A stretch of 37,287 bases of DNA. It comes from a virus. The notes under the pieces are model-generated. The model was given only the letters and a program-made list of their open reading frames with translations, was not told where the DNA came from and did not search any database. The stretch spans positions 1 to 37,287 of the IMG/VR virus record IMGVR_UViG_3300030110_000321; one strand, written 5' to 3'. The position numbers and the translations under genes are program-made. Below are positions 21,838-31,042 of the stretch, piece after piece (the first letter of the stretch is position 1; every line of letters begins with the position of its first letter).

Positions 21838-21870
21838 ATGTGGTTCTCCTATATGTTACCATTGTTTATG

Positions 21871-21938
21871 CTATAGAATACTAAAGAATACTTAATATGA
21901 TGATTATGGTTATATAAAGTATCTTTAGTATACTATAG
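21871..21938 (-). promoter_or_regulatory. Long AT-rich inverted repeat in the SSB gene leader
   Basis: Arms at 21871-21893 and 21916-21938 are complementary except for one mismatch and one extra base; the loop is 22 bases. The left arm contains CTAAAGAATACT, whose complement AGTATTCTTTAG also occurs at 25071-25082 just after the rightward promoter. It could be an operator, a processing hairpin or part of an origin. No convincing -35/-10 pair is seen in this 163-bp gap (21838-22000). Confidence 0.6.
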
Positions 21939-21987
21939 AATAGTATAAGGCATAAATGTTACAGAATTATGACACAAACTAACTAAA

Positions 21988-22005
21988 TTGTTACAAATTG
22001 TTACA
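21988..22005 (-). promoter_or_regulatory. TGTAAC double motif, copy 2
   Basis: Read on the minus strand this is TGTAACAATTTGTAACAA, 17 of 18 identical to 24989-25006 on the plus strand. Each copy points along its own direction of transcription. A third half-copy (TGTAACATTT) is at 21954-21963. The element touches the stop codon of the gene ending at 22001. Confidence 0.5.
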
Positions 22006-24057: not shown

Positions 24058-24086
24058 TCTCTACTCTGTTAGTTAATAGTTACACT

Positions 24087-24112
24087 ATAGCACACTATTG
24101 CTAATGCGCTAT
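24087..24112 (-). other. Stem-loop between early genes
   Basis: In minus-strand RNA, AUAGCGCA and UGUGCUAU can pair over eight base pairs (one G-U) around a 10-base loop. No U-run follows, so it is not a simple terminator. It lies in the 69-bp gap before the GP88-like gene and could be an RNA processing or stability site. Confidence 0.4.
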
Positions 24113-24126
24113 GGGTTTAACTACTG

Positions 24127-24598: not shown

Positions 24599-24601
24599 AT
24601 G

Positions 24602-24622
24602 TATTACCTTAGTTAGTTAATA
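24602..24622 (-). promoter_or_regulatory. Leader hairpin of the leftward transcript with ribosome-binding site in the loop
   Basis: TATTA (24622-24618) can pair with TAATA (24606-24602), leaving an 11-base loop that ends in the AAGG ribosome-binding site of the first leftward gene. It starts at about the first transcribed base. A five-pair A/T stem is weak on its own; the parallel with the leaders at 25072-25099 and 30728-30755 is what makes it notable. Confidence 0.35.
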
Positions 24623-24629
24623 TTTACGG

Positions 24630-24658
24630 ATAATAATCTATTGTTAATCTAATGACAA
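24630..24658 (-). promoter_or_regulatory. Leftward sigma-70-type promoter
   Basis: On the minus strand TTGTCA (24658-24653), a 17-base spacer, then TATTAT (24635-24630): one mismatch in each hexamer and ideal spacing. Predicted start near 24623, some 25 bases before the first leftward ATG. It should drive the early/replication arm. Confidence 0.75.
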
Positions 24659-24988: not shown

Positions 24989-25006
24989 TGTAACATTTTG
25001 TAACAA
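24989..25006 (+). promoter_or_regulatory. TGTAAC double motif, copy 1
   Basis: TGTAACATTTTGTAACAA, two TGTAACA units 11 bases apart, about 30 bases upstream of the rightward -35. It differs at one base from the minus-strand copy at 21988-22005. Possible binding site for a regulator or replication protein. Confidence 0.5.
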
Positions 25007-25036: not shown

Positions 25037-25065
25037 TTGACATTTGCTTAAAAATATGGTAAAAT
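25037..25065 (+). promoter_or_regulatory. Rightward promoter 1 (sigma-70 type), terminase/portal operon
   Basis: A perfect TTGACA (25037-25042), 17-base spacer and TAAAAT (25060-25065). Predicted start at about 25072. Another TTGACA at 25014 has no -10 at suitable distance. The downstream leader is homologous to that of promoter 2 (30694-30722). Confidence 0.82.
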
Positions 25066-25071
25066 AATAGA

Positions 25072-25099
25072 GTATTCTTTAGCTACAAAGGTAAAATAC
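25072..25099 (+). promoter_or_regulatory. Leader hairpin 1 with ribosome-binding site in the loop
   Basis: GTATT (25072-25076) can pair with AATAC (25095-25099), placing AAGG (25088-25091), the ribosome-binding site of the terminase gene, in the loop. The hairpin starts at the predicted 5' end of the RNA. A homologous hairpin (GGTATT/AATACC) follows promoter 2. Confidence 0.5.
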
Positions 25100-30693: not shown

Positions 30694-30722
30694 TTGACAT
30701 TTAACACAAAATGTGATATAAT
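30694..30722 (+). promoter_or_regulatory. Rightward promoter 2, consensus sigma-70, capsid operon
   Basis: Perfect TTGACA (30694-30699), 17-base spacer, perfect TATAAT (30717-30722). The predicted start is about 30728-30729. With the terminator at 33109-33144 it defines a unit of about 2.4 kb with the scaffold and major capsid genes. Sequence from the -35 to the start codon resembles that at promoter 1. Confidence 0.88.
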
Positions 30723-30727
30723 AACAA

Positions 30728-30755
30728 GGTATTCTTAACAATAAGGTAAAATACC
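30728..30755 (+). promoter_or_regulatory. Leader hairpin 2 with ribosome-binding site in the loop
   Basis: GGTATT (30728-30733) pairs perfectly with AATACC (30750-30755) around a 16-base loop holding AAGG (30743-30746). The A/A end pair at promoter 1 is replaced here by G/C, consistent with a kept stem. Confidence 0.5.
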
Positions 30756-30757
30756 AA

Positions 30758-31042
30758 ATGAACAAAGACTTAGAAGTATATTTTAATAATTATTTTGAGA
30801 TGTTCCGAAGCGAAGGTTGGAAACAACTTTTAAAGGATTTTCAACAAAATGTTGTTAATATTAATTCAGTTGAACAGACTACGGACGCTGATAACCTTCA
30901 TTTTAGGAAGGGCCAGTTAGCTATATTAGCTACCATAGTCAATCTAGAAAATCAAATGGACAATGCACACAAAAACGCATTGGAAGAAGAGGAAAAATCC
31001 TCAGAGGAAGAGGAAGCCTTGGCAGAAGAAACAAATGAATAA
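30758..31042 (+). CDS. Conserved small phage protein at the head of the capsid operon
   Basis: A 94-residue protein: an aromatic helical start (MNKDLEVYFNNYFEMFRSEG), a core with LHFRKGQLAILATIVNLENQ, and a very acidic end (EEEEKSSEEEEALAEETNE). I recall similar proteins upstream of scaffold or capsid genes in marine podoviruses. Function unknown. It is the first gene after promoter 2, and the next gene's ATG overlaps its 3' end by eight bases. Confidence 0.72.
   Translation: MNKDLEVYFNNYFEMFRSEGWKQLLKDFQQNVVNINSVEQTTDADNLHFRKGQLAILATIVNLENQMDNAHKNALEEEEKSSEEEEALAEETNE

Follow-up and report, generated by a model that had tools for sequence, protein, structure and literature searches.

A conserved leader hairpin and a putative internal promoter before the SSB gene of an uncultured marine podovirus group

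Gene 2.5 of phage T7 has its own promoter, phi2.5, which is transcribed by the RNA polymerase of T7 itself, and the intercistronic hairpins of this phage are RNase III-type processing sites. The SSBs of T4 and RB69 exert autogenous repression via a structured, AU-rich leader, the sequence of which diverges between the two phages (PMC535899). Stem-loops of the ompA type, placed at the 5′ terminus, are described as stabilising bacterial mRNA in the work of Emory et al. (1992), as cited in PMC7509114.

The window analyzed here is a whole 37-kb virus record (37,287 nucleotides) with divergent gene blocks, of which the leftward one carries SSB, primase/helicase, polA, a Cas4-type exonuclease, an endonuclease and ribonucleotide reductase, and the rightward one carries terminase, portal, head and tail genes. 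Among the window genes tested or annotated, none was recognised as coding for a phage RNA polymerase, and no tRNA or tmRNA was found. Residues 32–119 of the SSB match the Gp2.5-like SSB phrog_112 (E=1.2e-6), and the closest cultured-phage match was that of Pseudoalteromonas phage Slicky01, at 29.8%. No relative of the SSB was found in Genome_contigs, and a search of cultured phage records yielded no match at the DNA level for the 1.6-kb region. The features detected are listed in Table 1.

Table 1. Positions of the features described in the window
Feature	Position	Strand	Remarks
SSB gene, 124 aa	21463–21837	−	Distant relative of T7 gp2.5-type SSB; directly precedes primase/helicase and polA
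SSB leader (intergenic gap)	21838–22000	−	Compared with nine clade-1 relatives
3′ arm of leader hairpin, AAGTATTCTTTAGTATTCTATAG	21871–21893	−	Includes the 12-mer, 21881–21892
5′ arm of leader hairpin, CTATAGTATACTAAAGATACTT	21917–21938	−	Fold and pairing comparison
Candidate −10, TATACT	21942–21947	−	Predicted start about 21934–21936, at the hairpin foot; invariant in aligned relatives; no good −35
Alternative promoter candidate, GTAACA-17-CATAAT (extended TG)	21966–21994	−	Not kept in L003 and L010
TGTAAC direct-repeat pair, 10 bp apart	21990–22005	−	Third copy at 21958–21963
Intercistronic hairpin before gp88-like gene	24058–24126	−	z −4.6; same leftward operon as SSB
TGTAAC direct-repeat pair, 10 bp apart, upstream of promoter 1	24989–25006	+	Motif scan, relatives
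Promoter 1, TTGACA-17-TAAAAT	25037–25065	+	Conserved in relatives
Promoter-1 leader hairpin, GTATTCTTTAG...AAAGGTAAAATAC	25072–25099	+	Encloses the Shine-Dalgarno sequence
Second promoter, TTGACA-17-TATAAT, and leader GTATTCTT...AAGGTAAAATAC	30694–30754	+	Before the gene at 30758

Leader hairpins in the leftward operon

The gap before the SSB gene, its two repeat arms, the TGTAAC copies and the 12-mer AGTATTCTTTAG lie at the positions, and in the order and orientation, given by an earlier sequence-only reading, and the inverted repeat proposed there (21871–21893 and 21916–21938) is borne out, with the minus-strand RNA folding at a z of about −4 to −5. On the transcribed strand, the leader gave a z of −4.0 over 146 nt and of −4.8 over 119 nt, with no shuffle folding equally well. 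Folding predicts a plain hairpin that lies 5′ of the Shine-Dalgarno sequence without enclosing it, and no window match was obtained from Rfam at the gathering score. The attenuation point that had been proposed for this gap is not favoured, since the stem is AT-rich and no U-run stands behind it; an intrinsic terminator or attenuator was rejected on the same features, and none was listed there by the terminator scan.

The palindrome, expected to be kept in relatives if it matters, is the best-conserved part of the gap across nine related contigs and looks functional. Contigs with an SSB 91–99% identical retain the leader hairpin, and in L003 and L010 the end of the upstream gene is replaced and TGTAAC is gone, yet the TATACT box and the hairpin are kept. 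Among nine sequences (the window and eight relatives), 98.9% of the stem cells pair, and the covariation score was reached by 7 of 500 shuffles, with slid structures scoring far lower. Two stem pairs changed on both sides, both in L009, and the compensatory support in clade 1 thus comes from one sequence, with few changes overall. The clade-1 stem displays no G-U asymmetry between the strands. Conserved pairing of this kind, seen here over few changes, is a property of an mRNA-stabilising 5′-terminal stem-loop, and we regard a conserved 5′-UTR hairpin of the SSB gene as well supported. One relative, L004, carries a multi-branched, strongly folded insert of ~105 nt (~1045–1150; z −4.8) between the hairpin and the SSB ribosome-binding site, which ends in a U-run and for which neither an Rfam match nor another copy was found. 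The CTGTCATAATTCTGTAACA repeat of L002 and L004 was also considered as a Pho-box-like (phosphate-regulator) site and rejected as a resemblance only, as it degenerates in relatives.

A scan that used an SSB alignment yielded 78 loci, with gaps of many types. In other clades, with SSBs 47–62% identical, the gap sequences are unrelated, and many again harbor a hairpin. The gap of clade 2 (SSB 52–58% identical) differs in sequence and folds again, and owing to its sense-strand G-U pairs the sense RNA folds far more strongly than the antisense RNA (−22.6 vs −11.1 in L144); in the L159-type leaders the pairing of a short hairpin is maintained through swaps from A-U to G-C. Outside clade 1, the SSB leaders are rich in CTTTAG/CTAAAG (17 vs 3.5) and in CTTTAG/CTAAAG/CTTAAG (30 vs 5.4); CTTWAG was nevertheless rejected as a specific site, being largely a general non-coding excess of the more distant relatives. 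The non-coding DNA of L186, L190 and L197 has a strong excess of CTTTAG/CTAAAG/CTTAAG (22 vs 3.5 expected in L190).

Strong folding of the sense strand was also observed in the 69-nt gap before the gp88-like gene. This hairpin stays with its gene where the upstream gene differs, its stem changes preserve pairing, and no conserved promoter was seen at it. The leftward operon therefore holds at least two gene-attached intercistronic hairpins, which keeps alive the reading of such hairpins as RNase III sites.

Promoter candidates and the transcript start of SSB

In several other clades, the hairpin closely follows a sigma-70 consensus promoter located where the upstream gene ends. Consensus promoters at this place read TTGACA-17-TATAAT in L186, L190 and L197 and TTGACA-17-TAAAAT in L192, and the one in L188 has 16-bp spacing; L195 and L202 have no promoter of that kind before SSB. 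Over 22 leader types, the promoter scores exceeded those of shuffles (Fisher p 3e-8), carried mainly by L186, L188, L190, L192 and L197. An internal SSB promoter is well supported in several relatives. For the window, its predicted activity is moderately supported, and the window's own promoter score (p 0.043) comes from the alternative CATAAT site.

As for the transcript start, a hairpin was seen to open 17 of 21 leaders when these were taken from their predicted starts, whereas shifted positions gave 34%, a comparison that is partly circular, some of the −10 boxes having been chosen with the hairpin in view. When the −10 was chosen by score alone, the hairpin stood at the start in 5 of 11 leaders (background 0.375), which is not significant, and in L186, L188, L190 and L192 no hairpin lies right at the predicted start. 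Because the former test is partly circular and the score-only test not significant, we treat a hairpin sitting at the start of the transcript as plausible only.

The 12-mer shared with promoter 1

At promoter 1, AGTATTCTTTAG forms the predicted transcript start and the 5′ arm of a short hairpin that encloses the Shine-Dalgarno sequence (GUAUUCUU...AAGGUAAAAUAC); only a few bases separate it from TAAAAT, and base pairing joins its GTATTCTT to AAGG...AAUAC before the start codon. The same type of leader recurs at the second promoter (30694) and in relatives. Twelve distinct leaders of this type pair in every cell, with one pair alternating between U-A and A-U, though the leaders were collected by a pattern requiring GTATT/AATAC-like outer ends and only the inner switch is independent support. 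The window copy alone folds weakly (z −1.0). The second promoter, which is strong and of the sigma-70 type, lies upstream of a 94-aa gene, between the portal and scaffold-like genes. A leftward promoter candidate, TTGTCA-17-TATTAT, was also observed at 24601–24658, followed by AAGGTAATACATATG, which resembles the rightward leaders. In the Slicky01 record (L205, OQ508958.1), the search listed three places, and the promoter at 49118–49171 is very like promoter 1, GGTTCTTTAGG standing at its predicted start.

The window contains exactly two copies of the 12-mer, where 0.015 would be expected. A shared 12-mer between the SSB gap and the promoter-1 stretch was found in 10 of 1000 shuffles, and in 32 of 1000 when the whole 502-bp divergent region was compared on both strands, which makes the match uncommon but not overwhelming. 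All other-clade contigs holding both places keep GTATTCTT at the promoter and none has it in the SSB leader, and the SSB leader of L009, within clade 1, is also without it. The shared regulator that the sequence-only reading had suggested does not follow from the 12-mer, as the promoter-1 hairpin is kept in relatives whose SSB leaders lack it, and a common operator was rejected on the same relatives. We take the match to be mainly a coincidence between two AT-rich hairpins, a setting in which a shared 12-mer can mislead.

Competing explanations and likeness to described systems

The account that we favour, by somewhat better than an even chance, combines a 5′-UTR hairpin of the SSB gene with an internal sigma-70 promoter, the hairpin protecting or processing the SSB message. 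Transcription of the leftward replication operon would run through the hairpin in the gap, a leader element of the SSB gene. An extra SSB transcript, starting at or near the hairpin foot, would come from a promoter inside the gap that is read by host sigma-70 and probably has TATACT as its −10. The hairpin would most likely protect or process the SSB message, so that more SSB would be made than primase and polymerase, which are encoded downstream; whether as stabiliser, RNase III site or operator, its role is putative. Rather unlikely, though worth weighing, is that RNase III-type processing of a polycistronic leftward transcript takes place at the hairpin and that the window clade has no promoter of its own there. 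Consistent with such a site are the length and nearly perfect pairing of the stem, its place in a wide gap of the operon, the second strong hairpin without a conserved promoter and the weak −35 of the SSB promoter in the window clade, but clear promoters stand in the same gap of other clades, where several hairpins are only 7–8 bp and hence short for RNase III. By analogy with T4 gp32, the SSB might also bind its own leader and repress translation, and, like the T4 and RB69 leaders (PMC535899), the leader diverges in sequence, here between clades in which a hairpin is often kept; this operator appears improbable, however, for an SSB that is gp2.5-like and not gp32-like and for a hairpin that leaves the Shine-Dalgarno sequence free.

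A DNA-level operator or origin, in which the palindrome and the TGTAAC repeats bind a regulator or initiator common to promoter 1, draws on the repeats. The motif scan found TGTAAC alone not to be over-represented (32 copies vs 26 expected in the window), whereas the TGTAAC pairs are non-random. Pairs exactly 10 bp apart occur in the window only at the SSB gap, where the copy at 22000–22005 overlaps the end of the upstream gene, and at promoter 1, which 0 of 300 shuffles matched. Most clade-1 members keep TGTMAYA-like repeats ~11 bp apart just upstream of the candidate −10. The tandem pair at promoter 1 is likewise present in most members of clade 1, but L031 and the other clades seen lack it. 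Against such a site, TGTAAC before SSB is lost in L003 and L010 and does not occur in the further leader types tested, the 12-mer is not common to both places in other clades or L009, and the distance from the repeat pair to the 12-mer is about 97 nt at the SSB gap vs 66 nt at promoter 1. The GC-skew minimum lies at the divergent promoters near 25 kb with no turn at the SSB gap, which also speaks against the second replication site once suggested for it. We give the DNA-level reading little chance, although the paired repeats could be a clade-specific protein site common to both places.

The favoured combination of leader hairpin and internal promoter provides this uncultured marine podovirus group with a testable promoter-and-leader map, in which the SSB gene and the gp88-like gene each have an attached hairpin leader and a leader enclosing the Shine-Dalgarno sequence recurs at two rightward promoters. 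It is doubtful that the SSB leader hairpin acts as an autogenous operator of the gp2.5-like SSB, or as one of several related leader hairpins (those of SSB, the gp88-like gene and promoters 1 and 2) by which the phage group tunes messages made by the host RNA polymerase. The locus resembles that of T7 gene 2.5 in having an SSB gene with a dedicated promoter, a candidate here, inside a replication operon; unlike in T7, the window promoters are of the host sigma-70 type, and no phage RNA polymerase is among the annotated genes. With the ompA-type stem-loop, as cited, it would share a hairpin at or near the 5′ end of the message, here the predicted SSB start. The likeness to the gene 32 leaders of T4 and RB69 lies in a structured, AU-rich 5′ leader before a phage SSB gene, whereas T4 gene 32 has a pseudoknot and UUAAA/UAAA repeats reaching the ribosome-binding site and encodes a gp32-type SSB, and in the window the SSB is gp2.5-like and the long hairpin lies upstream of the Shine-Dalgarno sequence.
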